Shown: in pieces, positions 19,561 through 35,816 of the stretch
Numbering within the stretch: position 1 is the first letter of the stretch
Layout: each line of letters starts with the position of its first letter
Source of the DNA: a virus
Reading direction: 5' to 3' (one strand)
Length of the DNA stretch: 63,457 nt
Virus record (IMG/VR): IMGVR_UViG_3300001460_000024
Span: 4,403-67,859 of that record
Made by a program: the position numbers and the translations under genes
Notes under the pieces: model-generated
Database searches by the model: none
Told to the model about the DNA's origin: nothing
What the model saw: only the letters and a program-made list of their open reading frames with translations

Positions 19561-19685
19561 TGTTTTCTAATATTAGGGTAATAGTATTCAAACCGCTTAA
19601 CGGTTTCTATTATACCATCTTCTATGGGTGTAAATTGGGGACCTACTAACCTATGTTCGCCCGTAACTAATACTTTTTTATTATA
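19557..19685 (-). pseudogene. Remnant of an NAD-dependent sugar epimerase gene
   Basis: An open frame of 42 codons without start codon fills the gap between the GDP-mannose dehydratase gene and the next gene. It reads KKVLVTG then LVG, like the Rossmann start of extended SDR epimerases but with the middle glycine lost. It continues at once into FTPIEDGIIETVKRFEYYYP, like the C-terminal end of such enzymes. About 250-300 residues between these ends would be missing, which points to an internal deletion. Its TGA overlaps the ATG of the next gene. Confidence 0.65.
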
Positions 19686-20676
19686 CTAATTGTTTTTCTT
19701 TTGTGTAATATTCTAACCAATATTCAACCATCTCATCAAGCATTGTTTCAAATGTATATTTAGGTTTCCAACCTAATCTATCTCTAAGTTTAGTTGAGTC
19801 TCCTTTTAGGTCGTGTAGTTCTTCTGGTCTCAATAAATTATCATCCATCTTAACAAAATCCTTATAATCTAAATCTAATGCTTCGAATGTATATTCGCAT
19901 AACTCTCTAACTGAATGTGAAACACCAGTGGCACAAACATAATCATTTGGATTATCGGTTTGTAGCATCATCCACATCGCTTTTACATAATCTCTAGCAT
20001 GGCCCCAATCTCTAGTTGCATCTAGGTTTCCAAGTGTTAAAGTGTCTTGAAGACCCAATTTAATTCTAACAGCAGCCTTAACTACCTTATTAGTTACAAA
20101 GTTTGTTCCTCTTCTAGGTGATTCATGATTGAATAGTATTCCATTCCAAATTTTCATACTATAAGAGTTTCTATAATTCCTACAAATATTATATGAAAAT
20201 ACTTTTGCGCAACCATAAGGTGATACTGGGTTCATTGCAGTGGTTTCTCTTTGGTAGCCGTCAATATCAATATTATTACCAAACATCTCAGAAGAACTAG
20301 CTTGATATATCTTAGCTTCTGGACACACTAATTTAGCGGATTCAAGTAGTATAAGGGTACCAACACCAGTAACATTTGCAGTATATATAGGTTGTTTGAA
20401 ACTTACTCTAACGTGTGATTGTGCAGCTAAGTTATAAATTTCATCTGGGTTAGTTTTAGCCAAGATATTAACTAAAGAAGCCATGTCGGTTAAATCACCA
20501 TATTCTAAACTTATTAAATTATTTGAACGTAAGTGTTCAATTCTAGTGGTTTGTGTTTCTGATACAGAGTTACGTTTAACAATACCACAAACTTTATAAC
20601 CCTTTTCTAATAAAAATTCTGCAAGATATGAACCGTCTTGTCCATTTATACCAGTAATTAATGCAACTTTATTCAT
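19681..20676 (-). CDS. gmd: GDP-mannose 4,6-dehydratase
   Basis: Converts GDP-D-mannose to GDP-4-keto-6-deoxy-D-mannose, the precursor of GDP-fucose, GDP-rhamnose and GDP-perosamine. 331 residues. GINGQDGSYLAE (9-20), SSSEMFG (127-133), the catalytic pair Tyr154 and Lys158, and FNHESPRRG are all canonical. No GDP-fucose synthase is present in the window; the epimerase remnant just downstream may be what is left of a partner. A TATTTAT motif lies 21 nt upstream of the ATG (20698-20704). Confidence 0.95.
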   Translation of the reverse strand: MNKVALITGINGQDGSYLAEFLLEKGYKVCGIVKRNSVSETQTTRIEHLRSNNLISLEYGDLTDMASLVNILAKTNPDEIYNLAAQSHVRVSFKQPIYTANVTGVGTLILLESAKLVCPEAKIYQASSSEMFGNNIDIDGYQRETTAMNPVSPYGCAKVFSYNICRNYRNSYSMKIWNGILFNHESPRRGTNFVTNKVVKAAVRIKLGLQDTLTLGNLDATRDWGHARDYVKAMWMMLQTDNPNDYVCATGVSHSVRELCEYTFEALDLDYKDFVKMDDNLLRPEELHDLKGDSTKLRDRLGWKPKYTFETMLDEMVEYWLEYYTKEKQLV

Positions 20677-20867: not shown

Positions 20868-21878
20868 TTATTTCCCATCCCTTTCTTTTACTTTTTTATT
20901 AATCCACTTAAATGTTTTCTCCATTCCGTTTCTAAGTGGTTCAGAAACCTCCCAACCAACTTTCTCTTTGTAAAGTGTGTTGTCTGACCTTCTGCCTCTA
21001 ACACCAACTGGACACTTATGACCGTATTTAGCTTCGAATGCATCACCCTCTAGGTTGTTTATGTTGATATCTTTACCAGCAATATCAATTGCCATTTGTG
21101 CGAAATTATTAATTGAAATCATCTCTTCCGAACCAATATTTACTGGACCTAAGAAATCTATTTCCATAAACTTTTCAACAGCTTTAAGGCATTCATCAAT
21201 ATAAAGGAAAGAACGAGTTTGTAACCCATCGCCCCATACTTCAATTTCTCCACCAGTTTCAGTTTCAGCTGATTTGCGACACATTGCTGCTGGTGCTTTT
21301 TCTTTACCGTTATTCCAAGAACCTTGTGGCCCAAAAATATTGTGGAACCTTGCAACTCTTACGTCTAAACCATAGTTTCTATTGAATGCTAGGTATAGTC
21401 TCTCACTAAATAACTTCTCCCATCCATATTCCGAATCTGGATTAGCTGGGTAAGCTGAAGACTCAGCACAGTTTGGGTTGTCTGGGTCTAATTGATTATG
21501 TTCTGGATACATACATGCGGAGGATGAGTAAAATACTTTTTTAACACCTTTTAAAACACATTCGTTTACAACGTTAATATTAATAAGTGCTGAACCATGC
21601 ATTACGTTAGCATCATTCTCTCCCGTAAAAATATACCCAGCACCACCCATATCTGCTGCTAATTGATAAATCTCATCAACATTATCATCAATAACCAATG
21701 ATACTACTTTTGGGTCTCTTAAATCACCTACTATGAATTCGTCACAAATTTCATCATGGTTAAAATATTCATGTTTCTTAATGTCACAAATCCTAACGTG
21801 ACATCCTTCATTTTTTAATTTTCTACCTAAGTGACCACCTATGAAACCACCTCCACCTAAAACAATTACTTTTTTCAT
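20868..21878 (-). CDS. gme: GDP-mannose 3,5-epimerase
   Basis: Double epimerase converting GDP-D-mannose to GDP-L-galactose (and GDP-L-gulose), best known from plant ascorbate synthesis. 336 residues. GGGGFIGG at 8-15; LAADMGGAGYIF at 74-85; SSSACMYPE at 119-127 with the putative catalytic Cys123; Tyr152-xxx-Lys156; RFHNIFGPQGSW followed by EKAPAA; and GDGLQTRSFLYIDEC. These match plant and bacterial GME closely. It overlaps the preceding glycosyltransferase gene by 4 nt (ATGA). Confidence 0.9.
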   Translation of the reverse strand: MKKVIVLGGGGFIGGHLGRKLKNEGCHVRICDIKKHEYFNHDEICDEFIVGDLRDPKVVSLVIDDNVDEIYQLAADMGGAGYIFTGENDANVMHGSALININVVNECVLKGVKKVFYSSSACMYPEHNQLDPDNPNCAESSAYPANPDSEYGWEKLFSERLYLAFNRNYGLDVRVARFHNIFGPQGSWNNGKEKAPAAMCRKSAETETGGEIEVWGDGLQTRSFLYIDECLKAVEKFMEIDFLGPVNIGSEEMISINNFAQMAIDIAGKDININNLEGDAFEAKYGHKCPVGVRGRRSDNTLYKEKVGWEVSEPLRNGMEKTFKWINKKVKERDGK

Positions 21879-22684
21879 AATTCTATATTTTTCTTAAATT
21901 TATTATATTTTTCTTTATAGTCAATATTATTATAATAGTTTAACAAGTCATCCTTACTAAACTTAGATAATAACTTATACAAGTTATTATTTTTCACAAA
22001 GAATTCATTCGAGTTATCACTTGTTGGTGTTCTTGTATGTTCAAAATGTAGGACAAAATCACCAACTCGCCCAACTCTATACTCAATCTTATGGAATCTA
22101 TCATACCTTTCAGAATCTTCTGGACCATATGCTATGAAATGTTCATTCTCACCACCACAACTAATATATTTTTCAGTATTCAAAAACATACAATGTCCTT
22201 GTCTAGCATTCCAATAATCAAAATCATTATCATTGAGTAACCCTAAATCAAAACTTTTATTAAATACCTCCCTGTTGAAGCTTTGGAATATTCGCTTTTG
22301 GAACCTACCTTCTTGGTATGGGTATACGATATCTAGTTTATCATTTAATATTGTATTCTGAGCATTTACGTATGAATCCACTGGTAATAAGACATCTATA
22401 TCATAATTAACTACAACTGGTGTTTCAGTTATAACTAACATCTCGTTTAACTGTCTAGTTCTGTGGTAACACCCGTTAAACTTCTCAGTAATATGTTTTA
22501 TTTTAATGTTAGTTAGTGTGTCTAGAAAATCTAGTTTAGATTCCTCATTAATCATTTCATGTATTATCACATTGGTTTCAAAGTGGTGGTTTAAAAATCC
22601 TAAAACACTACTTGCGTTGTTATATCTATCTTGAGATTCAACCATCACTGGAATAATAAAAGTTGTATTCTTTAACCCTATCAT
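21875..22684 (-). CDS. Galactosyltransferase-type GT-A glycosyltransferase
   Basis: 269 residues. NYDIDVLLP near residue 93 supplies the DxD. The later GGENEHFIAYGPEDSERYD motif followed by RVGDFVLHFEHTRT resembles the C-terminal domain of beta-4-galactosyl/chondroitin synthase-type transferases (Glyco_transf_7C). The donor may be UDP-galactose or UDP-GalNAc, fitting the GalE gene. It overlaps the epimerase gene by 4 nt. Confidence 0.75.
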   Translation of the reverse strand: MIGLKNTTFIIPVMVESQDRYNNASSVLGFLNHHFETNVIIHEMINEESKLDFLDTLTNIKIKHITEKFNGCYHRTRQLNEMLVITETPVVVNYDIDVLLPVDSYVNAQNTILNDKLDIVYPYQEGRFQKRIFQSFNREVFNKSFDLGLLNDNDFDYWNARQGHCMFLNTEKYISCGGENEHFIAYGPEDSERYDRFHKIEYRVGRVGDFVLHFEHTRTPTSDNSNEFFVKNNNLYKLLSKFSKDDLLNYYNNIDYKEKYNKFKKNIEL

Positions 22685-22695
22685 AAATTAAAACT

Positions 22696-23535
22696 TTATA
22701 ACCTATATACTGCACCATGTTGATAAGTAAAACCTTTTACTGGTATAATTTTACCTGGTTTACAAAAAAGTGTCACTCCCATGTATTTAATTGGTGCGTC
22801 ACCCCACCTTCTAATATAAATGTAACCACTTTCATCTATGGCGTTATAAAAATCCCAGTATTGGGATTCTAAGAACCAACTAACCTTTCCTAACTCAAAA
22901 TTTGTGTAAAACATCTTACCCTCTGATATTGAATCTACATCGGTATATATTATTGGTTTATTTTTATTTAAATATTCTTTTGTGAAGTTATTAAAACCAG
23001 AAATAACTTTCTCAGTGTCAATTTGAACGGCTGGAGCACAATAACCATAATTTAAGTCATTATTTCTAGCAAACTCAAATATGTCATAATTTAAAGGTGT
23101 TAAAATATATGAATCAGTGTCCAACCTAAGATAGTATTTGTAATTTTGTAAAACTTCTTGCTTGTGGAATTCTCCAGAGAAAAATCTACACATATTTCTA
23201 TAACCGATTGTAAATCCTGGATGTCCCCAAGCAATTGGTCCATTACCATGTGTTGGGTGTGGGAAGAATTCTGGTATTTGCGATACAATGTCTTCAGTAT
23301 ATTCTGGTGGCCCCATGACTATTTCATGGAACTGTAAATCAATATTAGTTTGAATGTCATTCCTCAACTCACCTAAATCAGATTCGTGAAATATTATTAC
23401 ATCGCAATTATTAGTAAATCTTAATAAATTATTCTCTAATAAATTTAAAGACTTATTAAGCATTTCGATATCGTCTTGACTAGACCTTAATAAATAAACT
23501 ACACAATCTTTACCCATAATTATACTTTTATCCAT
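22696..23535 (-). CDS. GT15-like alpha-1,2-mannosyltransferase
   Basis: 279 residues. The central and C-terminal motifs match the fungal KRE2/MNT1 family (GT15): IGYRNMCRFFSGEF, YKYYLRLDTDSYI (a real DxD where fungi have EPD), MFYTNFELGKVSWFL, and YIRRWGDAPIKYMG. Those enzymes move mannose from GDP-mannose to form alpha-1,2 links on N- and O-glycans. No membrane anchor is present, unlike the Golgi enzymes. It overlaps the next upstream gene by 16 nt. Confidence 0.82.
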   Translation of the reverse strand: MDKSIIMGKDCVVYLLRSSQDDIEMLNKSLNLLENNLLRFTNNCDVIIFHESDLGELRNDIQTNIDLQFHEIVMGPPEYTEDIVSQIPEFFPHPTHGNGPIAWGHPGFTIGYRNMCRFFSGEFHKQEVLQNYKYYLRLDTDSYILTPLNYDIFEFARNNDLNYGYCAPAVQIDTEKVISGFNNFTKEYLNKNKPIIYTDVDSISEGKMFYTNFELGKVSWFLESQYWDFYNAIDESGYIYIRRWGDAPIKYMGVTLFCKPGKIIPVKGFTYQHGAVYRL

Positions 23536-24851
23536 TCATCATAACAAAGCATATTTGGTGGGTGACCAAAATTACTAGGTACAACTGTTTTATTATTTGG
23601 TTGTCTCTTATTTAAATATGCGCCCCAAAAACTGAATGTTGAGATATTCACAATGTTACTCTCACACATTGCTATCATAAAAAGTGATGCAAATTGGTCT
23701 TCATCTATTAAATGAAATTTTTTATCTGGGTATTGAGACATTAGACTAACTAATGTTCCCTTACAATGTTTAATACTATCAGTAAATACCAATATATTTT
23801 TGTTCTCTATTTCCGCTAAGGCTTTAACATAATAATCTCCTTTCAATGGCATATCATGTACATCACCTTTTGAATTCCAAGTTCTAATATGAAGTGAACA
23901 TGAATCCTTAAGTAAGTGTCCATGTTTTTCAGTTATATAAGATACCATTTGTTCTGATGGTTCAAATTTATCAATAATTATATCCCTGTACTTATGAAGT
24001 ATTTGAAAATCGAACATATCATTAATTACAAACTTTGTATCAAAATCAGCAGTTTCTATTTCTGTGAAAGTTACATTTTTAAATGCGTTGTTGAAATCTT
24101 CCCACGACCCACCATGACCACCAAGAATTATGTCTGAATTGTTACATACTGGTAATAATGAACAATCCCAGGTTTTAAATTCTGGTTCACTTAATCCATT
24201 AACTTCTGAAAATACTAGTGGTTCAATTAGTTGAAATAGGTTATTCCCTAAACCACCATGAAGACTTGTTGTTATCGCCCCACCATCCTTAACACTATAT
24301 TTAGGTTCAATAATCGAGCCATTCACATTAATAAAAGTATTAGCATCTCTTTGTGCTTCTTCATTATTAAAATAATCCTTACTATTCACAATCTTTATTA
24401 TATTAGGAAATAACTTCTGTAATCTTTCTACTTCCGAATAATATTCATCATAATATTTTCCAATAGATTCCCTATTATCCATACCGCTATAATCATCAAA
24501 GAAATTTAAGTTGTATCTTGAATATTTCGACCTATCTTTGATAAGTGGGTTTCTAAATCCCCAGTGAATCATAAGTGATTCTACTGTCTTTTCTTTGTCT
24601 CCTTTTAAACAAAGCACTCTAACATTTGATTTATTTGTTATGATATCTTCTAAAATTTTTAAATAAAACGAACCAATAAGTATTCCATTGGGGTTATTTA
24701 ATTTTTCACCAATAAATTTACCGTAATCAATCTCAAATGAGTTCTGCATCTTTCTCGGTACAATCTTAAATGATGTTCCCTGTCCTAATGTATTTAATAA
24801 GCTGTTTATTCTTTGAAATCCACAACCACCAGTACCTATTATTATTCTCAT
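23520..24851 (-). CDS. Fusion: sulfotransferase-like domain + GT11 fucosyltransferase
   Basis: 443 residues in two parts. Residues 1 to about 190 look like a sulfotransferase: GTGGCGFQRINSLL at the N-terminus in the place of the PAPS-binding P-loop, and VLCLKGDKEKTVESL in the place of the 3'-phosphate-binding strand. Residues about 193-443 are a GT11 alpha-1,2-fucosyltransferase-type domain: SLHGGLGNNLFQ, CSLHIRTWNSKGD, VFTDS, ISTFSFWGAYLN. A single chain that adds and sulfates a sugar would be unusual. The sulfotransferase half is less certain than the GT11 half. Confidence 0.75.
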   Translation of the reverse strand: MRIIIGTGGCGFQRINSLLNTLGQGTSFKIVPRKMQNSFEIDYGKFIGEKLNNPNGILIGSFYLKILEDIITNKSNVRVLCLKGDKEKTVESLMIHWGFRNPLIKDRSKYSRYNLNFFDDYSGMDNRESIGKYYDEYYSEVERLQKLFPNIIKIVNSKDYFNNEEAQRDANTFINVNGSIIEPKYSVKDGGAITTSLHGGLGNNLFQLIEPLVFSEVNGLSEPEFKTWDCSLLPVCNNSDIILGGHGGSWEDFNNAFKNVTFTEIETADFDTKFVINDMFDFQILHKYRDIIIDKFEPSEQMVSYITEKHGHLLKDSCSLHIRTWNSKGDVHDMPLKGDYYVKALAEIENKNILVFTDSIKHCKGTLVSLMSQYPDKKFHLIDEDQFASLFMIAMCESNIVNISTFSFWGAYLNKRQPNNKTVVPSNFGHPPNMLCYDEWIKV

Positions 24852-25666
24852 AGTGTATAATTTATTCCTCTTATTTCATATTCCCAATGTGTGGTCATAT
24901 CAAAAATTGGTTTATTGTTAGCATCAATTCTTTGACCAACGAAAATACCATAATCTATACTGTCATGTTTTGGGAAATCTCTATTATCTTTATTTACATA
25001 TAAATTGTCATGTCTTTGGTTTCGTACACTAACAACATAGTTGACTAAACCGCACCCATAGGCTTCGTTAGGTTGAACCGTATCACCTTCTAAAAACTTA
25101 GGTTCCCCATTTGGCGTGTTGTGTGCCCAATAGTCATGACACAGATGGTCATGTTTTATTAATGGCCATAATACCCTTGTTAATACTGTTTGGTCATCCT
25201 CTCTACTATTAGGATTGCTTGGTGTTAGGTTTGGTACCTCGTATTTAGTTTTGAATATATTATTATTAATCCCAAACATGCCAGCCATAATTTCATATAC
25301 ATGGTTATGAGCATCCCTTATTAAATGTACTGGTTTACCGCTAACAATCCATTCATCCACGCATACCTTATCTCTCTGCGTAACTCTAGAATCACAATCC
25401 CTACTTATCCATATAGATACATCGTCTTCGTTGAGTGGTTTAAAACGCCAAAATAACCCATCATATGTGTTATTCCTATCACACTTGATTGTGATGGCAC
25501 CGTGTACTAATAGTTCATCTATTATTTCAGTTGGTACATCATCACTGTAATAAACTCTACATTCCCACCCTTCGTAAATCTCAGAACATAACTTTGCGTT
25601 CTCAATTGCACCCTTGCAATATAAGTCAGCATTACCAAATAAACTAAAACTTACTACCCTTTTCAT
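24848..25666 (-). CDS. Putative GT-A glycosyltransferase
   Basis: 272 residues. It begins VVSFSLFGNADLYCKGA and carries WISRDCDSR near residue 90 as a DxD site, followed by IRDAHNHVYEIMAGMFG. This pattern is found in a family of putative glycosyltransferases in phages, giant viruses and environmental bacteria. It overlaps both neighbours or abuts them (4 nt on one side, 1 nt on the other). Confidence 0.7.
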   Translation of the reverse strand: MKRVVSFSLFGNADLYCKGAIENAKLCSEIYEGWECRVYYSDDVPTEIIDELLVHGAITIKCDRNNTYDGLFWRFKPLNEDDVSIWISRDCDSRVTQRDKVCVDEWIVSGKPVHLIRDAHNHVYEIMAGMFGINNNIFKTKYEVPNLTPSNPNSREDDQTVLTRVLWPLIKHDHLCHDYWAHNTPNGEPKFLEGDTVQPNEAYGCGLVNYVVSVRNQRHDNLYVNKDNRDFPKHDSIDYGIFVGQRIDANNKPIFDMTTHWEYEIRGINYTL

Positions 25667-26253
25667 TATTCACAGTTATATACTCCGTACACACATTTAG
25701 CACCATGGAAGCCAGGTTCACCAATCGATGTGTACGTTTTAACACAATCACCAAAATAACGTCTAAAGTCAGATTCAGAGAACGTAAATGGATGTTCCTT
25801 ATTAATAGGTAAATCAATCGGTTCAAAGAACCTAATAACCTTAGCAAAATTCTTAGCCTTATCAATTAGAACTTCTGGGTCTTTAACATGTTGCATTAAA
25901 TTCATTATCCATACTTCATCTACCATAGGTGAGTCACAGTCCTCATATAGCTCACGGATGAACTCAAGGTTCTTACCTTCATAATAAGGGTCTAACCCAT
26001 CATATAAGGTTGGTTCAACAATATATGATAGTCCATAATTTTCACAGTATAAAAGTCCTGCAAATTTGGCTGGTCCTATCTCAATTATAGTCTTCCCGTC
26101 TAAATTAGTGTCAATAGCTAAATATTTGAAGTAATACTTGTAACTATTCTTATAATTTTCGTAAGAACTCTCTAGAGGTTCCATATCGTGGAACTGTTTC
26201 TCACCTATTTGAGCGTATTCCCACCTTTCTTGACTAATTGCTTGTTTTTTCAT
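25666..26253 (-). CDS. SAM-dependent methyltransferase, class I
   Basis: 195 residues. TIIEIGPAKFAGLLYCE is the glycine-containing SAM-binding motif I, and WIMNLMQHVKDPEVLI corresponds to the motif IV/post-I region of small FkbM/UbiE-like methyltransferases. Lying within the sugar cassette, it may O-methylate a glycan. It shares one base with the next gene. Confidence 0.75.
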   Translation of the reverse strand: MKKQAISQERWEYAQIGEKQFHDMEPLESSYENYKNSYKYYFKYLAIDTNLDGKTIIEIGPAKFAGLLYCENYGLSYIVEPTLYDGLDPYYEGKNLEFIRELYEDCDSPMVDEVWIMNLMQHVKDPEVLIDKAKNFAKVIRFFEPIDLPINKEHPFTFSESDFRRYFGDCVKTYTSIGEPGFHGAKCVYGVYNCE

Positions 26254-26366: not shown

Positions 26367-27185
26367 TTAACAATTTCTACTTTCCATTATTTTATTTATG
26401 ATTTTATCTTTATGCCTTGCAACAACGGTTCTGGTGTTTCTTTGGTTAGCAGCTAATACCCAATTAGCTGGTTTACCATTAACTCTGGTTCCACCCCACC
26501 TTGGGTCGCACAAATAATCAATCCAATAACAACCAACCACTTTACCAATTTCTTCTTGCATTCTAAAACATAAATCGTGGTCATCCATATCTTGCGGTGC
26601 GAAGCTCTCATCAAAGAAATTCAATTTAACCATGTCAGTATAATCTAACGCTAATGGACCTCTATTAACACATTGCCTAATTGCAAATGTGTTTCTATCA
26701 ATAGTTTTCTTATTGGCATGCTCAACGTGATTAAGAATATCACTCCACTCATAGTCATTATCCACATTAGTGTGGATATGTTTTGATTTGAGGTTGAATT
26801 CCCAGTTATGGGCGCATTGAGCTGTTACACCAAATACATCATCAAACTTTCTGAATGGTTTAGTTAACCTTTCATTCCACCCATTCTCAGTCATAACCAT
26901 ATCATCTTGTATGATAATCGCTATATCGTTCTCAACGAGTCTTAAACCAGTATTATTCGCCTTTGTTTCAAATATATCTGGTGTCTCATTGATTTTAATT
27001 TTGATATTAGGATTTTCATCCCTAAACTTATAAACTAATTCTGGTGTCTTATCGTTACACCCATCTAAGATAATTATTAACTCATATGAGTTAACTGTAT
27101 TCTCTTTGATTCCATTTAAAACACTATCAATAAGGAATTCCTTATCGTGAACTGTTAATACTAAAGATTGACTTTTATTTGACAT
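26367..27185 (-). CDS. Family 2 glycosyltransferase
   Basis: 272 residues, GT-A fold. LVLTVHDKEFLIDSVLNGI is the standard GT2 start, IIIQDDMVM around residue 92 is the acidic metal site, and FFDESFAPQDMDDHDLCFR is the ED(x)D-like acceptor/catalytic segment. It overlaps the next upstream gene by 11 nt. Confidence 0.85.
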   Translation of the reverse strand: MSNKSQSLVLTVHDKEFLIDSVLNGIKENTVNSYELIIILDGCNDKTPELVYKFRDENPNIKIKINETPDIFETKANNTGLRLVENDIAIIIQDDMVMTENGWNERLTKPFRKFDDVFGVTAQCAHNWEFNLKSKHIHTNVDNDYEWSDILNHVEHANKKTIDRNTFAIRQCVNRGPLALDYTDMVKLNFFDESFAPQDMDDHDLCFRMQEEIGKVVGCYWIDYLCDPRWGGTRVNGKPANWVLAANQRNTRTVVARHKDKIINKIMESRNC

Positions 27186-27834
27186 TGCACTTAATATAAC
27201 TTCTTAATAATCTATTGACGTTTAGGTTGTGTTTAACAGCTAAATTAGTAATAATACTTTGGTCATGTCTATGGTCAACAAAACATGGATAATTATCACT
27301 TAATATGTTTGGGATATCCGTGATTACATTTTCATCTTTAGCATAAGATAACCATTCTTCAATAATGTTTGTTATTTCTTCGGTTTTTTTAAAACCTATA
27401 ATTCCAGCTTCAAGTTGAATGAAATTGTGATATTTGGGTTCATCACAACCCATCTTAATGAAGCAATCTCGTTTTGTATAATCCTTTTGAGGGTAACCAC
27501 CTACTGTTAGTAGTGATGAATTATCTTGGAAGTAATGAACTAGGAACTCTCTTACGTTATTGAAGAAAATATCGCCACAATCAATATAAAGGATTACGTC
27601 ACCAGTATTAATTTTTTTAAACGTTTCAAGAATGATAAACGGTTTCCATAGCCAATACCCACCACCTCTTTTCTCGTCTAAGATTTTCTTATTTTCTTTA
27701 TAGAAATCAGTCTCTATCAACCATTTTCTATTATATGAATGAACTTTATCAAATTCATCTTCAGCATTTGCGTCTAACGCAGCTTGCCTATCCTTATAAA
27801 GTTCATCCGAATATGTGATAAAATGTACCTTCAT
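27175..27834 (-). CDS. Putative glycosyltransferase, GT-A type
   Basis: 219 residues. RGGGYWLWKPFIILE and VILYIDCGDIFF form a pattern seen in small putative galactosyl/hexosyltransferases; YIDCGD takes the DxD place. Late in the chain, DHRHDQSIITNLA resembles their closing motif. It is tightly packed between a GT2 gene and a fucosyltransferase gene. Confidence 0.68.
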   Translation of the reverse strand: MKVHFITYSDELYKDRQAALDANAEDEFDKVHSYNRKWLIETDFYKENKKILDEKRGGGYWLWKPFIILETFKKINTGDVILYIDCGDIFFNNVREFLVHYFQDNSSLLTVGGYPQKDYTKRDCFIKMGCDEPKYHNFIQLEAGIIGFKKTEEITNIIEEWLSYAKDENVITDIPNILSDNYPCFVDHRHDQSIITNLAVKHNLNVNRLLRSYIKCNVK

Positions 27835-28643
27835 TATAACCTTTTCATTTCTTCTCTATAAATGTCATTTGTATTGTAACCAGCATACCTTGGTCCAAAC
27901 CAGGTGCTAGGTGCGATAACCCTTTTGTCTTCACTTTCACTCAAGTATGAACTCCACCAACTAAATGAACTATTGGATATGATGTGGTCATCACACATTG
28001 ATAGGATACAGAAGTCTATAAAGTGGGATGGTGATTTAACTACAGTACAATTATCGACTTCACCCCACTGACCATTACACCAGTCATAATCATCAGAACA
28101 TATCATAAAATGTACATCATCGAATTCGGCCATTGCTCTTTGTAAGTAATAAAGGCCAACAAACGGATGAACATCTGGTATAGTTAAATAATCTTTTCTT
28201 CTTACGTGGACCGAAACTAATCTATTATCAACTTCTGGTAGATAACTCATAGCAACCTCACGTATATGTTCTTTGAATTTTAACAATCCTAATATCTTTT
28301 CCTTACAATGTAAAAAATATTTTTCAGTTTGTAAGTAACCGTCAATATTAGTGTCATCACCAACACTCATAAGTGTTTCATCAAAATGGAAATGTCTTTC
28401 AACCCTTCTATTATTAACCCAAACACCATCTTTGAAGTATTTAGGGTTAATATCAAAACAATTAACAATATCAACTCTAGCAATAAAATTATTACCATCA
28501 CTTAATGACTGTCTTTGTCCGTTTCTATTGGTTGGGAATGTTACATCAAAACCATTCTTCTCAGCGATACCAATTGTCCCAGAAAATTGGAATAATTGAT
28601 TTCCAAACCTACCATTAAGACCTAATCTATTGTATGTTATCAT
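27834..28643 (-). CDS. Alpha-1,2-fucosyltransferase, GT11
   Basis: 269 residues, standard GT11 size. GRFGNQLFQF is at 11-20 and the donor-phosphate motif HVRRKDY at 146-152. SDDYDWC and ISNSSFSWWSSYL are the other GT11 blocks. It transfers L-fucose (or a related sugar such as L-galactose) from a GDP donor. As the window encodes a GDP-L-galactose enzyme but no GDP-fucose synthase, an L-galactose donor deserves consideration; fucose from the host is the alternative. Confidence 0.9.
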   Translation of the reverse strand: MITYNRLGLNGRFGNQLFQFSGTIGIAEKNGFDVTFPTNRNGQRQSLSDGNNFIARVDIVNCFDINPKYFKDGVWVNNRRVERHFHFDETLMSVGDDTNIDGYLQTEKYFLHCKEKILGLLKFKEHIREVAMSYLPEVDNRLVSVHVRRKDYLTIPDVHPFVGLYYLQRAMAEFDDVHFMICSDDYDWCNGQWGEVDNCTVVKSPSHFIDFCILSMCDDHIISNSSFSWWSSYLSESEDKRVIAPSTWFGPRYAGYNTNDIYREEMKRL

Positions 28644-29800
28644 AAATTTACAATTATACCAACTGGTAATTCATTATTTGTTGAGAAAGTGACCTTATTA
28701 CCATATCTCTTAGATAAATCATTTTTAATTAAACTAATAATTCTAATATCATCATCTATATGTACATTATAACCAATATTCAGTAACGAAATAGCTAATT
28801 TCAGTTGTTGAGATTCCTCAATTATATCAATTCCTTTCTTATATGAAACTGATGTGAAAATGTAAGTATCGTCACCACTATTCCTAGAACTAAACTCATT
28901 GGTTAAGAATTTATTATGTTCTTCGTTGAATTTATCAACTTCATATGGTAAATTAATAGTAAGACCTATTTTTTTCATGTGTTTACCCAGTGCTCTGTTA
29001 TCTCTTGGTAAGCATGGCCCACCAAACCCAAACCCATAGTTTAAGTATTTTGTACCTACTCTTGTATCACCACCAATCGCACTTAATACCTTATTAATTT
29101 CATCACCAATACCACTTTCAACACAAATCTCACCCATCATATTAGCAAATGATATTTTAGTTGTTAAGAAGCAGTTAATTGAAATCTTAGTAATCTCGGC
29201 TGCTGTGTTACTCATGAATTTAAAATTAGGTTCAATTGACATTAAGGTATTATAGAAATTCCTAAGCATATCCGAAGCATCGTCAGAACTACTACCAATG
29301 AGTACAATATCAGAATATTCTAACCCATTAATTATATCGCCTTGAGCAATGAACTCTGGGTTGTAGCAAACATCCATACCATATTTAGATAAACGTTTGT
29401 AAACAGTATCTACGTATCCTGGCATAGTTGTACAACCCACAACGAATACTTTACCATTCAAATTGTGACCCATCTTATGTAAGGAATGAAAATCATCTAT
29501 GATTTTTTCAACGTAGTCATGAATATAACCACCGTTATCCCCATCAGAAGGAGTTTGAACAAACGTAAAGATGAGGTCGTTTTCACGAATCACAGCTAAA
29601 TTGTCAGTAGTCATTCTAAAATTCTTACTAGTACTTAAATAATTCTCTATATTTGGTTCTAAACTCTTAAGTGTTTTGTTATTGATTAAATCTACGTACT
29701 GTTCACTTACGTCTGAACCTAATATTTCGATTCCTTTTTTCTCAGCTAGTAACGCAAATGATAACCCCAGTTTACCAGCACCAATCATACCTACATTCAT
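28640..29800 (-). CDS. ugd: UDP-glucose/GDP-mannose-type 6-dehydrogenase
   Basis: NAD-dependent four-electron oxidation of a nucleotide sugar to its uronate. 386 residues. GAGKLGLS at 7-14 binds NAD, CYNPEFIAQGDII is at 145-157, and GFGFGGPCLPRD places the catalytic Cys at 263. Whether UDP-glucose, UDP-N-acetylhexosamine or GDP-mannose is the substrate cannot be settled by eye. It overlaps the GT11 gene by 4 nt and follows the NAD synthetase gene by 4 nt. Confidence 0.9.
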   Translation of the reverse strand: MNVGMIGAGKLGLSFALLAEKKGIEILGSDVSEQYVDLINNKTLKSLEPNIENYLSTSKNFRMTTDNLAVIRENDLIFTFVQTPSDGDNGGYIHDYVEKIIDDFHSLHKMGHNLNGKVFVVGCTTMPGYVDTVYKRLSKYGMDVCYNPEFIAQGDIINGLEYSDIVLIGSSSDDASDMLRNFYNTLMSIEPNFKFMSNTAAEITKISINCFLTTKISFANMMGEICVESGIGDEINKVLSAIGGDTRVGTKYLNYGFGFGGPCLPRDNRALGKHMKKIGLTINLPYEVDKFNEEHNKFLTNEFSSRNSGDDTYIFTSVSYKKGIDIIEESQQLKLAISLLNIGYNVHIDDDIRIISLIKNDLSKRYGNKVTFSTNNELPVGIIVNL

Positions 29801-29804
29801 ATTC

Positions 29805-30599
29805 TTAAATTTTAAAAATCGGTATATCTACCATCTTATGTTTATTTCTTTTGTTAAATGATAGATAGATTTTTAAAACTTCTCTTTCACGGTCAGTTAA
29901 ATTTAGAGTTACTAAATCATGTGGTGTTGTATCTAAGTACTCCATGACCCACTCTAATTCGTCATATGTAGCTCCGATTTGAGTTTCGTCATCCCTATCA
30001 TTATCCCAAAGCCCATCAGTTGGTCTAGCTGTTTGTATTTCTTCAATTACGTTTAATTCTTTTGCCATAGCATATACTTCTGATTTATATAAATCAGCAA
30101 TAGGAGCGATATCAACACCACCGTCTCCATACTTGGTAAAGAATCCAATACCTAAATCTTCAACCTTATTACCAGTACCAACTACAATCCCCCCTTTAGC
30201 TTGAGCAATTTGGTATAGGGTTGTCATTCTCAATCTAGAACGGGTATTAACTAACGCTAATTCATTTAACGTGTTACTAGGAATTGCGTATTTAAAAGTG
30301 TCAAAGGTTTCAGATAAATCAACCTTAATCATTTCCATGTTATAACTTTTTTTCATTAACCACTCAATGTGTTTTTCACCTCTTTCAGTTTGTTCTGGTT
30401 TTTGGTGTAAGGGTAAAACAATACAATATGTTTTAATTCCAGACATAACACAAAGTGTTGATACTAATGCTGAATCAATACCTCCAGAAACACCAACAAC
30501 TAACGACTTTATTTTATTAGTATCAGCGTATTCTTTTAACCAAAGCGCAATATCAATAATTACGGACTTTACTTGTAGTTTTCTTTCGACTTTAAACAT
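29805..30599 (-). CDS. nadE: NAD synthetase, NH3-dependent
   Basis: Last step of NAD synthesis: amidation of deamido-NAD with ATP. 264 residues from the ATG at 30599; a TTG two codons earlier (30605) is a less likely start. SGGIDS (38-43) is the ATP pyrophosphatase loop; GTGNKVEDLGIGFFTKYGDG and IAPIADLYKSEV are NadE signatures, as is RPTDGLWDND. The glutaminase domain is absent. It lies directly before the NAD-dependent sugar dehydrogenase. A host-type promoter-like sequence lies just upstream, but very close to the start. Confidence 0.93.
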   Translation of the reverse strand: MFKVERKLQVKSVIIDIALWLKEYADTNKIKSLVVGVSGGIDSALVSTLCVMSGIKTYCIVLPLHQKPEQTERGEKHIEWLMKKSYNMEMIKVDLSETFDTFKYAIPSNTLNELALVNTRSRLRMTTLYQIAQAKGGIVVGTGNKVEDLGIGFFTKYGDGGVDIAPIADLYKSEVYAMAKELNVIEEIQTARPTDGLWDNDRDDETQIGATYDELEWVMEYLDTTPHDLVTLNLTDREREVLKIYLSFNKRNKHKMVDIPIFKI

Positions 30600-30602
30600 A
30601 TA

Positions 30603-30633
30603 CAAATATATGTTTTTTTAGTCATAAAGTCAA
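30603..30633 (-). promoter_or_regulatory. Possible Bacteroidota-type promoter before nadE
   Basis: On the minus strand TTG (30633-30631), 20 nt, TATATTTG (30610-30603). The match is good, but the expected start site would lie at the nadE ATG itself, giving an almost leaderless mRNA, so this may be fortuitous. Confidence 0.3.
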
Positions 30634-31355
30634 TACTTAATTTGGATTTTTTCATAAGGTATCATATATCTAATTTTAAGAGCTATTTCGTTAACTAGTG
30701 TAATATCAACCTTGTGGTCATTAAGTGGGTTTTGTTCATTGTAAACATAGTTTACATCTGTCATGAATTTATAATGTTCTTGCCCAGCCATTTCAAGCAT
30801 TGGGTACATGAACGCTAAATCACCAGTTACTTTCCAAAAGATTCCATTATCATCCTTTAAGTCATCTTGTTCAATCGCTCTCCATAAGAAAGCCCTCCAC
30901 GTTCTAATATGCGAAGCTGTGAACCTGGAACTTCTAAGGTTATCCGTTATGGTTTGCTCTGAAGCAAATCCAGGTTGACCATTAGAATATCTAAAACTAC
31001 CATTGGCAATCCAAATATCCTTATCAGAATAAACTTCAGCAATCCTAGAAAGTGTTTTAGAATCTGGCAACCAATCATCACCATCAACTTCAACAATAAC
31101 TTCATTGTCGCTTATGTCTTTATTATCTCTTATAATTTGGTCGTAATTACCTGGTTGATAAAATTTTTCTTTATTTTCAATTAAAATAAATCTGTCATCT
31201 CCATTTATTATGTTTTTAACTTTTTCAACAGATTTATCTGTGCTAATATCATCGGTTATATAACACTTAAAATCTATATATCTTTGCCCCATCAAAGACC
31301 CTATACAACGCTCTATATAGTCTTCTGAGTTATAAAGTGTAGTTACTATAATCAT
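30630..31355 (-). CDS. Family 2 glycosyltransferase
   Basis: 241 residues from the ATG at 31355, which overlaps the upstream TGA (ATGA); a further in-frame ATG at 31376 would give 248 residues. IIVTTLYNSEDYIERCI is the GT2 start and VEVDGDDWLPD carries the DxD. The C-terminal half has the FWRAFLWRAIE-like helix seen in phage GT2 proteins (AFLWRAIEQDD). Placed between a GT4-like gene and nadE. Confidence 0.85.
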   Translation of the reverse strand: MIIVTTLYNSEDYIERCIGSLMGQRYIDFKCYITDDISTDKSVEKVKNIINGDDRFILIENKEKFYQPGNYDQIIRDNKDISDNEVIVEVDGDDWLPDSKTLSRIAEVYSDKDIWIANGSFRYSNGQPGFASEQTITDNLRSSRFTASHIRTWRAFLWRAIEQDDLKDDNGIFWKVTGDLAFMYPMLEMAGQEHYKFMTDVNYVYNEQNPLNDHKVDITLVNEIALKIRYMIPYEKIQIKY

Positions 31356-32143
31356 AATTCTAATAATTTTACCCATTCTTCTATTATTCCTTTGTTTGTT
31401 AATTGTTTAACATCGTGGTCAGTTGCTTTATTGCCATAGAATTTAGTTCCAGTAGTTTCACATTCGTCTTTAACTAATGAAGCAACCTCTCTCTTTGATG
31501 ATAGAAAAGCTGCACCAATCATGTCATACATCTTTTGTTTGTCAGAAATAAAGCCATACTCAATAACGTTATCATGTTCATCTATTATAGGTTTAACAAC
31601 ACTGTTGTAATAATAAACATCACTTACATTACCAAATAATAATACTTTTTCATAACCCTCATTTAATGCTCTCATTATGGACATTTCAGTTCTTTTATTT
31701 GGGTCAATAGAACCTATTATACCAGCAACTTTTTCTACACCTTTTTCTTTTGTGTTTTTATTTAAAGGTTCTCTAAGATTTGGTATTATATCATATTTTC
31801 CATAATACTTAGAATGATAATTTTTCTGTTTTTCATTTAAAAACACAACTGTATCCCAAAATGGTTTTACATTTGACACTTCAAACACATTTGTTTCATG
31901 ACAATTTAGGATAACCTTTTTGCAGTTTGGCCTTTCCTTTAATTGTAAGAAATGAACAATTAATAAATCATCTTTTTCAGATTTAAAATCTTTTAATAAA
32001 CCAGATTTGCATTTATCTAAATGCCATTCATGTGGTCCATACAAAATTGTTTCGTAACCAGCTTCATTTAAAACATTGGTTAGGTTTATAAAAGCAAAGG
32101 TTGACCCACCTTTATCGCTCCATCCTGTTGCTATCTTAATCAT
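31352..32143 (-). CDS. Short GT-B glycosyltransferase (GT4-like)
   Basis: 263 residues, shorter than most GT4 enzymes. The start GWSDKGGSTFAFINLTNVL binds the acceptor side; VAGIIGSIDPNKRTEMSI and the following LLFGNVSD are donor-domain elements; SKREVASLVKDECETTGT contains the acidic motif. It overlaps neighbours by 4 nt on each side. Confidence 0.75.
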   Translation of the reverse strand: MIKIATGWSDKGGSTFAFINLTNVLNEAGYETILYGPHEWHLDKCKSGLLKDFKSEKDDLLIVHFLQLKERPNCKKVILNCHETNVFEVSNVKPFWDTVVFLNEKQKNYHSKYYGKYDIIPNLREPLNKNTKEKGVEKVAGIIGSIDPNKRTEMSIMRALNEGYEKVLLFGNVSDVYYYNSVVKPIIDEHDNVIEYGFISDKQKMYDMIGAAFLSSKREVASLVKDECETTGTKFYGNKATDHDVKQLTNKGIIEEWVKLLEL

Positions 32144-33228
32144 GCTAAAGATTTTTGATATTCACTTATTATTTCATCTATTGATTCAGTTAACATTTTA
32201 TTTTTGACTATAGGTAATTCTGGGTAAAACCTAGTTATATGGTCAACTAACATTTGATTGTTTTTAACATGAATTAAATCAAAGTTAACTTCGTGTATCC
32301 TATATAATTTATTTGGTTCAGATAATACATCACCATTTGGAGATTTAATACCCCATTTACCATCACCCATTTTATAACCAGGAGGCTCCCCTAAATGACA
32401 AAACTTTATACCCATTCTATCTAGTGTTTTTAAACCATTGGTATTTGGTTCTGAACATACCGCTATGGTATATTTTTTACCTTTTAAGTGTCTAGCTATT
32501 TGTACTACGTCTCGTATTTTTGGTGAGCACAATAAAACGTTAAATCTTTCTTTTCCGTTAAATTTTCTATCTATTTTTACTGGTAGGTTATCTTTATATT
32601 TTTCAGAAAATAGTTTTCTGTTTTCTTCCCATTCTTCATTTGTCATACCAATAGACATGTGGTTTATTCTTACATTAGTGTGTACACCCAATTTAACACC
32701 ACTTAAGTAATTCCTAAAACAAAAGTCAATTTCATAGAAATGAAACCCTTTTATATCTAAATCAAAGGTTTCTTTTATTCTATCTTTATGAACTGAAAAA
32801 AATACACCATCTAGTACAACAACTTCTTCTAAGTTATTACCTATATCTGAACTATATGATGATAACCAAGTTTTGCCGTTATTGGTGTGTTTGACTTTTC
32901 CATACATCTTTTTTTTATCTTTCCACCACATACCAGATTCATGCATGTATTTTGTACCTGCCACACCGATTACTCCGTATTCTTTATTTTTGTCAAATAA
33001 TTTTTTTATTTTATTTGCAAAATTTTTAGTTTCTACTAAAATATCATCATGACAAAACACAACAATCTCATGTTTTGTTTCCTCTAACCCTCTTTGATAA
33101 AATTTAGTTAAACCTTCGCCCTTGTTTATATATTCAATAACTTCAACATTTGAGTTTCCAGCCATTTTTTTTAAATGGTCAATATGTCCTTGGTTGTGTT
33201 CTTTTGTACAATATACAATACTAATCAT
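32140..33228 (-). CDS. Two-domain glycosyltransferase (Glyco_tranf_2_5-like)
   Basis: 362 residues. The first ~220 match the GT-A family with SIVYCTKEHNQGH, VVFCHDDILVE (acidic site), GVAGTKYMHESGMWW, and FHFYEIDFCFRNYLSG. The last ~140 (FNVLLCSPKIRDVVQIARHL onward) look like a second Rossmann-like domain, perhaps a GT-B N-terminal half, of unknown role. It overlaps the sulfotransferase gene by 8 nt. Confidence 0.78.
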   Translation of the reverse strand: MISIVYCTKEHNQGHIDHLKKMAGNSNVEVIEYINKGEGLTKFYQRGLEETKHEIVVFCHDDILVETKNFANKIKKLFDKNKEYGVIGVAGTKYMHESGMWWKDKKKMYGKVKHTNNGKTWLSSYSSDIGNNLEEVVVLDGVFFSVHKDRIKETFDLDIKGFHFYEIDFCFRNYLSGVKLGVHTNVRINHMSIGMTNEEWEENRKLFSEKYKDNLPVKIDRKFNGKERFNVLLCSPKIRDVVQIARHLKGKKYTIAVCSEPNTNGLKTLDRMGIKFCHLGEPPGYKMGDGKWGIKSPNGDVLSEPNKLYRIHEVNFDLIHVKNNQMLVDHITRFYPELPIVKNKMLTESIDEIISEYQKSLA

Positions 33229-33925
33229 TTAATTCTTTTTTATGTTTTTCGTTATAAATTTCAACAGACTTATTGTAAAACTCTATTTCTTCTGATAGTA
33301 ATTCACCGAGTTTAATTTTTTCTTCGTCTGTAACAGTATTTTTTGATTTAGTTACGTTTACCTTTTTGTATTGAGGAGCCCAATTATTTGTTAAACAACA
33401 TAAATCAATAAAATCGTTATATTTTTCGGTTAAACCAAATAAAAAGTTATCATTCTTTAAGTTCTTTAATGCTTTTTGTAGTTTAACCTCAAAAGGAGCG
33501 TCAATTGGTACACCAGAACAATAATTTAGTTGATAATGCTTTTTATCTTCATTTTCTGACTTGTGAAACCAATCTATTATGTTAGTTTCGTGTGTAAACC
33601 ATCCTCTATCTATTGAATATCTATATGCTGATATTGTTCTTGATATTGGTTCTCTTAGAACTGCTATGTATTGATAGTCTTTAGTTTTTAAAAATCTATG
33701 AAGACCAAACGGTGCATGTTCAGAAAACAAATCAAAATGTTCAAAAACTTCATAACCATTTGGTTCTGCAACTAAAAAATTACCAGGATTTCTTATATCT
33801 AAATTTTCATGTGTTAAAAAATATGTTTTACCATACCCCCAGTAAGGTTTTGAAACGTTAGATTCTAAGAAAGTCCTAAAACTTGTACCTGCGGTCTTTC
33901 CTATATGTATAAAAATATATTTCAT
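33221..33925 (-). CDS. Sulfotransferase
   Basis: 234 residues. YIFIHIGKTAGTSFR at the N-terminus is the PAPS 5'-phosphosulfate loop and AVLREPISRTISAYRYS the 3'-phosphate site; this is the sulfotransferase family 2 (PF03567) pattern of carbohydrate sulfotransferases. No membrane anchor is present. It would use host PAPS, since no PAPS synthesis gene is in the window. The first base is shared with the upstream small gene. Confidence 0.88.
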   Translation of the reverse strand: MKYIFIHIGKTAGTSFRTFLESNVSKPYWGYGKTYFLTHENLDIRNPGNFLVAEPNGYEVFEHFDLFSEHAPFGLHRFLKTKDYQYIAVLREPISRTISAYRYSIDRGWFTHETNIIDWFHKSENEDKKHYQLNYCSGVPIDAPFEVKLQKALKNLKNDNFLFGLTEKYNDFIDLCCLTNNWAPQYKKVNVTKSKNTVTDEEKIKLGELLSEEIEFYNKSVEIYNEKHKKELND

Positions 33926-34174: not shown

Positions 34175-35215
34175 TTATTTGTTAAACCTTTTTAAAGAGT
34201 TTTCAGATATTTTTATAAAATTAGCTTTATTTACAAATTCTTCTAAATCGAAAGAGTCTGAATAACTCATTGCCGACCTTAAATAAGATTTAAAATTATC
34301 AATCCATCCTTCAAGAGTATATTCAACTTCTCTTATTCTTACAACACCTTCAGATGTCTTTAATTTTAAACTACCCCACTTCTTCTGAACTTCTTTGGTG
34401 CTCATGCCTCTAAACTTTTTAAACACCTTAAAACCTAATTTATGAAGTCTTTTAGCAAATGAACTTGGTATTGGTATAATTTCAAATATATAATTTTTAC
34501 CACAAGATTCAATTGACTTATTAAATATGCTCCCAAGCATCACATAATCAGCACCAAGTGCCAATGCTTTTATAACATCTGAATAAGATTTCATACCACC
34601 ATCTGCTACGATTTTTGCTGGATTTTCTAATGAACAAGAAGCTATATAACATTCTCTTATTAAAGATGCCATTGGATATCCTACACCCAATTGTTGGGTT
34701 GTTAAACATCCATTTCCGTTTCCGATACCACACCTTATTAAATCTGCACCAGCATCTGAAAGTATTTCATAAGTTTTACTATTAGCAACATTACCAACCA
34801 TTAAAACTAATTGTTTACCCCATTTTTTCTTGGCAATTCTTATACAATAAATCATGTCTTTAATATGACCATTTGCAGTGTCTATTAATACATATTTTTT
34901 CTTTCCATTAATAGATGGTAATTCTTTTTTGATTATAATTTCTTTAAAATCATTCAAAGAATATGAAACAAAAGAATCATCTTCACTTTCAAGACCTCTT
35001 GGTAAGCACACATTAACCCCTAAGTCTTTAAACAATTGTTCATTTTCACTATCTACAACAGTATCCATAGGTGCGGTAAATAATGGTAATTTACCGTTTA
35101 AATCAAAAATATGAACTTCTTTTCTACTTTGAATTCTAGTAGTTTGTTTTGGTTCAATTAATAAATCATTAAAATCTAATTTAGTTACTTTTACTTGTAT
35201 ATCTGATAAAGCCAT
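34175..35215 (-). CDS. guaC: GMP reductase / IMP dehydrogenase family enzyme
   Basis: TIM-barrel purine enzyme: GMP to IMP (reductase) or IMP to XMP (dehydrogenase). 346 residues from the ATG at 35215 (MALSDIQVKVTKLDF), which is GMP reductase length and lacks CBS domains; an ATG at 35257 inside dut is less likely. DFNDLLIEP, APMDTVVDS, LIDTANGH, DAGADLIRCGIGNGNGC, GVGYP and IVADGGMKSYSD are present, and GVGYP favours reductase. The catalytic loop reads C-L-T-T where the family has C-T-T-R, so activity is uncertain. Confidence 0.75.
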   Translation of the reverse strand: MALSDIQVKVTKLDFNDLLIEPKQTTRIQSRKEVHIFDLNGKLPLFTAPMDTVVDSENEQLFKDLGVNVCLPRGLESEDDSFVSYSLNDFKEIIIKKELPSINGKKKYVLIDTANGHIKDMIYCIRIAKKKWGKQLVLMVGNVANSKTYEILSDAGADLIRCGIGNGNGCLTTQQLGVGYPMASLIRECYIASCSLENPAKIVADGGMKSYSDVIKALALGADYVMLGSIFNKSIESCGKNYIFEIIPIPSSFAKRLHKLGFKVFKKFRGMSTKEVQKKWGSLKLKTSEGVVRIREVEYTLEGWIDNFKSYLRSAMSYSDSFDLEEFVNKANFIKISENSLKRFNK

Positions 35216-35225
35216 ATTACTTTTT

Positions 35226-35816
35226 TTATTTAATACCTGTACTTCCAAATCCTCCATTTTCTCTTTCAGTTTTATTTAATTCTTTTACCTTTTCAAGGTC
35301 TATTAGTTCTCTGGTCATAACAGAATTTATAACACCTTGCGCAATTCTATCACCTGGATTTATAGTAAAACTCTTAGATGAATGGTTTATTAATATTATT
35401 TTAACTTCCCCACGATAATCACAATCAACAGTTCCAGGACTATTTAAAACTGTTATACCATGTTTAGCTGCTAACCCACTTCTTGGTCTAACTTGTAATT
35501 CCATGTTTTTTGGAAGTTCAAAATATAAACCAGTTGGAACCATAGCAATGTTATTGTCGCTGTTTTTGCCAGGGATTTCAATTGGTGTTTCAATATCTGC
35601 TCTAAAATCGAACCCAGCAGCACCATCACTGTGGTACTCTGGGTCAATATTACTAGATTTATTAAGAAACTTAATTTGTAATTTATAATCTGAAGATGAT
35701 GTTAATGTATGATTAACATTTTGGTATTCATTATTAAAATCTTCGATGGTGTACTTATTTGAAGGGGTTAATGCCTCAAAAAACTTTTCCCTAATTTCAT
35801 TCAAGTTATATTTCAT
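35226..35816 (-). CDS. dut: dUTPase with N-terminal extension
   Basis: Hydrolyses dUTP to dUMP, keeping uracil out of DNA. 196 residues; the core begins near residue 45. The five motifs are visible: DGAAGFDFRA, RPRSGLAAKHG, TVDCDYRGEVKI, GDRIAQGVI and a C-terminal GGFGSTG arm. The ~45 extra residues at the N-terminus are helical and of unknown role. It lies 5 nt after the HD-like gene. Confidence 0.95.
   Translation of the reverse strand: MKYNLNEIREKFFEALTPSNKYTIEDFNNEYQNVNHTLTSSSDYKLQIKFLNKSSNIDPEYHSDGAAGFDFRADIETPIEIPGKNSDNNIAMVPTGLYFELPKNMELQVRPRSGLAAKHGITVLNSPGTVDCDYRGEVKIILINHSSKSFTINPGDRIAQGVINSVMTRELIDLEKVKELNKTERENGGFGSTGIK

Follow-up and report, generated by a model that had tools for sequence, protein, structure and literature searches.

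The window analyzed here is a stretch of 63,457 nucleotides from a viral genome (positions 4,403 to 67,859 of IMG/VR record IMGVR_UViG_3300001460_000024). On its minus strand, positions 22696 to 23535 hold an open reading frame (ORF) of 279 amino acids that encodes a GT15-family glycosyltransferase. These coordinates were part of the original prediction and are right. Translation probably begins at Met7 (position 23517), to give 273 amino acids, because relatives begin at the equivalent position and the codon lies 2 bases past the stop of the upstream gene. The three blocks that had been read as KRE2/MNT1-like occur in the predicted order (YRNMCRF at residues 112 to 118, TNFELG at 211 to 216, and RRWGDAP at 242 to 248), and the DTD metal site is at residues 139 to 141. 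The protein was also said to lack a Golgi anchor, and we found no N-terminal hydrophobic segment (maximum 19-residue Kyte-Doolittle mean of 0.72). Fungal GT15 members of the Golgi have a type II membrane anchor, but it lies outside the PF01793 catalytic domain, and family membership does not depend on it.

The GT15 gene lies in a cassette of glycan genes on the same strand. Next downstream is a GT7C/GT2-like glycosyltransferase gene (21875 to 22684; PF02709) with matches in 36 related loci; this and the other locus counts in the cassette overstate independence, because several contigs are near-copies. Beyond it are genes for a plant-type GDP-mannose 3,5-epimerase (20868 to 21878; Arabidopsis GME, PDB 2c59, E = 2e-90; matches in 14 related loci) and a GDP-mannose 4,6-dehydratase (19681 to 20676; PF16363, E = 1.4e-121; 400 bits to TIGR01472 gmd, just below the cut-off of 415). 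GDP-fucose synthase was considered for 20868 to 21878 and dropped in view of the Arabidopsis match. This epimerase has homologues in 37 records of cyanophages and marine phages; among the matches listed, the annotation is UDP-glucose 4-epimerase or a generic epimerase/dehydratase.

Directly upstream, and overlapping the GT15 ORF, is a gene for a protein with a C-terminal GT11 (fucosyltransferase-like) domain (23520 to 24851; PF01531, residues 187 to 417; 36 loci). Its N-terminal part appears sulfotransferase/P-loop-like by eye. Two conserved cassette proteins follow, one without a family match (24848 to 25666; 21 loci) and one that matches phrog_3603 and is methyltransferase-like by eye (25666 to 26253; 29 loci). 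Then come a GT2 glycosyltransferase (26367 to 27185; PF00535; 38 loci) that is 52% identical to its counterpart in cyanophage P-TIM68, a conserved protein (27175 to 27834; 38 loci) that is fused to GT2 in P-TIM68, a GT11 fucosyltransferase-like protein (27834 to 28643; PF01531, E = 1.2e-22; 42 loci), a nucleotide-sugar (UDP-sugar) 6-dehydrogenase (28640 to 29800; TIGR03026 above cut-off; 18 loci), and an NAD+ synthase (29805 to 30605; PF02540; TIGR00552 above cut-off). Additional GT2 enzymes are encoded at 30630 to 33925, together with a sulfotransferase-like protein (PF00535, PF13712, and PF03567). The island also contains an IMP dehydrogenase/GMP reductase-like gene (34175 to 35257, minus strand). 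No GDP-mannose synthesis gene was identified in the examined parts of the window. Prochlorococcus phage P-TIM68 (KM359505, 155 to 166 kb) has a similar cassette, with homologues of the GDP-mannose epimerase, NAD synthase, UDP-sugar dehydrogenase, GT11-like, GT7C-like, and GT2 proteins, but unlike the window it has no GT15 gene.

A T4-type portal (phrog_213) and a contractile tail sheath (phrog_23) mark the source of the window as a T4-like myophage. Among isolated phages, the nearest are Mel-JY01, which infects Microcystis, and immuto, which infects Flavobacterium (identity of about 38 to 41%). GT15 genes are carried by 75 IMG/VR loci, some of them in certain cyanomyophages. A T4-type portal was found in 8 of 25 longer GT15 records tested, which argues against these 8 being giant-virus contigs. 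The portal of one record (L034) is 84% identical to that of Synechococcus phage SynMITS9220M01, and that of another (L050) is 47% identical to that of S-SSM4. A tblastn search of 50,697 isolated phages (INPHARED) with three divergent viral GT15 queries had no match. In BFVD there was one GT15-like match, a giant-virus protein (TM 0.74, 24% identity), and among the matches listed the phage entries had TM scores near 0.5 or below.

Several lines of evidence confirm that the ORF product is a genuine GT15 protein and a relative of Kre2/Mnt1. It matches PF01793 (Glyco_transf_15) at 103.4 bits (E = 2.1e-29; cut-off of 25), as do all 37 de-replicated viral relatives, in which the three blocks are invariant or nearly so. 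Therefore, chance resemblance is excluded. A profile built from these 37 relatives matched yeast Kre2 with an E-value of 1.4e-40 across profile positions 4 to 257 of 263, so the N-terminal half, missed by Pfam alone, is homologous too. PHROGs and NCBIfam searches with the ORF gave no match. A single-sequence search of the PDB returned three sequences only, all of them GT15 (Aspergillus Ktr4, E = 3.9e-20; yeast Kre2, E = 4.6e-19; and yeast Ktr4). The KRE2/MNT1 fold that had been anticipated was borne out by an AlphaFold (AF2) model (pLDDT 92.9, pTM 0.90), for which the top 11 PDB chains in Foldseek were all GT15 (TM 0.75 to 0.81). The next family was GT8, with the xyloside xylosyltransferase XXYLT1 at TM 0.50.

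The best structural match was Aspergillus fumigatus CmsA/Ktr4 (PDB 7boo and 7bop; E = 1.4e-19, TM 0.80 to 0.81). Both proteins have Asp as the acceptor-site acid, but they are 27% identical, and the E-P-K of CmsA/Ktr4 corresponds to D-T-D in the phage. Saccharomyces cerevisiae Kre2p/Mnt1p (PDB 1s4n, 1s4o, and 1s4p) shares the fold (TM 0.78 to 0.79), the PF01793 domain, Y220, R245, D361, and H388, and the NFE and RWGDAP blocks. However, identity is 23%, the fungal protein has E-P-D and a type II Golgi anchor where the phage protein has D-x-D and no anchor, and its stem and insertion are missing from the phage protein.

We assessed residue conservation in an alignment of 48 rows (37 viral, 3 archaeal, 4 chlamydial, 1 verrucomicrobial, and 3 fungal). 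Active-site roles were taken from a modelling study of Mnt1 (PMC11077754) and, for Kre2 E279, from PMC12493134; some Kre2 residue numbers were derived by applying an offset to the CaMnt1 numbering. All coordinates that follow are on the minus strand. The YRNMCRF block (23182 to 23202) contains Y112, equivalent to Kre2 Y220, and both Y112 and M115 are invariant across viral, archaeal, chlamydial, and fungal rows. TNFELG (22888 to 22905) contains E214 (Kre2 E329), and RRWGDAP (22792 to 22812) contains R243 (Kre2 R358) and D246 (Kre2 D361), with R-W-G-D invariant in 48/48 rows. The codon at 22717 to 22719 encodes H273, equivalent to the metal-binding H388 of Kre2 (PMC11077754). Further equivalences are R137 to R245, N212 to N327, and D173 to the acceptor residue E279, which is Asp in fungal Ktr4 as well. 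The set expected of a retaining GT-A enzyme (Tyr, Arg, the Asp that contacts sugar O6, and the metal His) is Y112, R137, D246, and H273, and it is invariant in all 48 rows.

Every mapped active-site residue is thus retained in the phage protein, with conservative changes at D139 and D173. The first is in the metal site, where D139-T-D141 (23113 to 23121) aligns with fungal E247-P-x. Each of the 45 non-fungal rows has D-x-D, extended to D-x-D-S whether the row is viral (37), archaeal (3), chlamydial (4), or verrucomicrobial (1), and each of the 3 fungal rows has E-P-x. D-x-D is expected to serve the same metal role as E-P-x. The missing E-P-x marks a variant and does not exclude the protein from GT15, because the family is defined by sequence similarity and not by a motif.

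The viral proteins fall into two clades that differ in their catalytic residues. R17 (codon at 23485 to 23487), which aligns with Kre2 R130, a guanine contact in the Mnt1 model (PMC11077754), is present in 16/21 representatives of the window's clade and absent from 16/16 of the other, which has D-C-D at the metal site and has also lost E214 in 10/16. The second clade may have a different donor or mechanism. PhoH is often encoded nearby, and the gene context differs from that of the window's clade, where most loci have GT11, GT7C, GT2, and two or three uncharacterized conserved genes beside GT15. Members of the D-C-D clade include L014, L015, L018 to L025, L060 to L071, and similar loci. One viral ORF of 470 amino acids (L024, 7116 to 8525) has GT15 behind what appears by eye to be an FkbM-like methyltransferase-type domain. 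The losses in the sister clade could be taken as a sign that the window's protein is itself a decayed or noncatalytic homologue. We consider this very improbable, because the ORF is intact and conserved and, R17 aside, the catalytic set is complete in 21/21 representatives of its own clade.

A 2017 survey found PF01793 in fungi only (PMC5225481). When genome contigs were scanned with viral-only motifs, no GT15 was found, and after fungal rows were added the scan gave five loci. Archaeal members are L077 (LFW-280), L078 (Methanoperedens), and L079 (archaeon Arabian11). L077 and L078 lie in closely similar archaeal gene clusters for surface glycans, and the L078 contig also encodes archaeal replication factor C. 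In Chlamydiota, 4 of 234 genomes have GT15 (L080 and L087 to L089), at least one of them with ordinary bacterial neighbours, and in Verrucomicrobiota there is one genome/MAG (L090), where the gene adjoins one that is kdsA-like by eye. Another candidate, from a Verrucomicrobiaceae MAG (L081, 203 to 346), was rejected as likely eukaryotic contamination; it is a 48-amino-acid exon-like fragment, and its contig also carries a PHD-finger-like ORF. GT15 is rare in cellular prokaryotes: the counts were 1 of 393 genomes sampled from the Methanoperedens phylum, 2 of 34 from the Methanoperedens family, 1 of 87 from a third phylum, and none of 14 control genomes. A plasmid search with archaeal GT15 had no match. 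The original description of a eukaryote-type GT15 in a phage holds for the phage GT15 but not for "eukaryote-type", because D-x-D members are found in archaea, Chlamydiota, Verrucomicrobiota, and dozens of phage contigs.

A maximum-likelihood tree of the 48 rows, unrooted and with eukaryotes represented by three fungal sequences only, has a single strong split (100/99), between the viruses plus the Verrucomicrobiota protein and the archaea, Chlamydiota, and fungi. The archaeal and chlamydial proteins share D-x-D-S and the same blocks with the phage protein, but they are 25 to 36% identical to it and lie on the opposite side of this deepest supported branch. Viral monophyly without the Verrucomicrobiota protein, a long branch with odd composition, was weakly rejected (AU test, p = 0.033). 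Fungi group with Chlamydiota at 94/79, and placing them next to the viruses was not rejected (AU test, p = 0.22), so we do not claim that fungi nest with Chlamydiota.

These results bear on the possibility that a fungus or other eukaryote was the source of the phage gene, with divergence afterwards. The description of GT15 from fungi (PMC5225481) would fit such an acquisition, as would the AU result that keeps fungi as possible neighbours of the viral branch. However, archaeal and chlamydial GT15s have the phage-like D-x-D and fungi do not, the viral rows are deep and diverse and are separated from the other groups by the 100/99 branch, and the phage protein is more similar to archaeal (32 to 36% identity) than to fungal (23 to 27%) members. 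Acquisition from a eukaryote is therefore improbable, and the tree, in which the phage genes do not fall within the fungal group, gives no support to a recent transfer from fungi to phages. The original prediction had offered an ancestral prokaryotic/viral form or a transfer; the ancestral form fits the tree split better than a recent transfer from fungi, within what an unrooted tree and the AU value of 0.22 allow. D-x-D is common to viruses, archaea, and bacteria, so the simplest reading of E-P-x is a change in fungi. On this unrooted tree, the family could plausibly have originated in prokaryotes or viruses. As a tentative extension, with somewhat less than an even chance of being right, GT15 might be an old prokaryotic and viral D-x-D family from which the fungal KRE2/MNT1/KTR proteins are a derived offshoot, taken from prokaryotes (or viruses), with D-x-D changed to E-P-x and a Golgi anchor gained.

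For the function of the phage protein, we favor, with moderate confidence, a cytosolic retaining GDP-mannose-dependent alpha-mannosyltransferase that extends a phage-assembled glycan. The soluble GT-A enzyme would bind a GDP-sugar together with a divalent metal, which D139 of D-x-D and H273 would coordinate. The donor is quite probably GDP-mannose, which would come from the host pool. The sugar would be transferred with retention; characterized GT15 enzymes are alpha-1,2-mannosyltransferases (PMC6372797 and PMC8778642), and alpha-(1,2)-mannose is the likeliest product here, at close to an even chance. D-x-D in place of E-P-x, together with the low identity to fungal enzymes, would be enough for a changed donor or linkage.

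The other GDP-sugars that the cassette could make, the products of its GMD and GME enzymes, count against GDP-mannose as the donor. Substrate switching is common within glycosyltransferase families, and the epimerase and dehydratase genes are close by, so a GT15-fold enzyme might use GDP-L-galactose, which the 3,5-epimerase would supply, or a GDP-6-deoxyhexose supplied by the dehydratase. We regard this as rather unlikely: the Asp that contacts mannose O6 (Mnt1 D350, phage D246) is invariant, and epimerase matches occur in 14 loci compared with 75 for GT15, although many loci are fragments.

The acceptor would be the glycan assembled by the cassette enzymes (GT2, GT7C-like, GT11, UDP-sugar dehydrogenase, and GDP-mannose dehydratase and epimerase). 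There is a reasonable likelihood that this glycan is attached to the virion, on its tail fibre or capsid, or to the surface polysaccharide of the infected cell. The virion is somewhat likelier, because tail-fibre-like genes adjoin the cassette in the window, L037, and L043. Mycobacteriophage virion glycosylation, as cited in PMC12619734, is a precedent for phage capsid and tail glycans. T4-like phages are also known in the literature for glycosylated DNA, and GT15 might instead act in base hypermodification, like their glucosyltransferases. This is highly doubtful, because the surroundings are a polysaccharide-type cassette (sugar dehydrogenase, sulfotransferase-like, GT2, and GT11 proteins), archaeal GT15 relatives sit in surface-glycan clusters, and no base-hydroxymethylating gene was found among the genes examined, which cover part of the window.

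What is new here is that the phage protein belongs to a large, previously unremarked viral/prokaryotic D-x-D branch of a supposedly fungal family and that its gene forms part of a glycan cassette conserved among related phages. The literature treats GT15 as a fungal cell-wall family and an antifungal target class. A populous phage branch, together with archaeal and bacterial members that have a canonical metal site, alters the view of where these mannosyltransferases arose. The phage GT15s also provide small, soluble, anchor-free versions for mechanistic study. Furthermore, cyanophage-like viruses carry a conserved multienzyme cassette to build a complex glycan from GDP-mannose.
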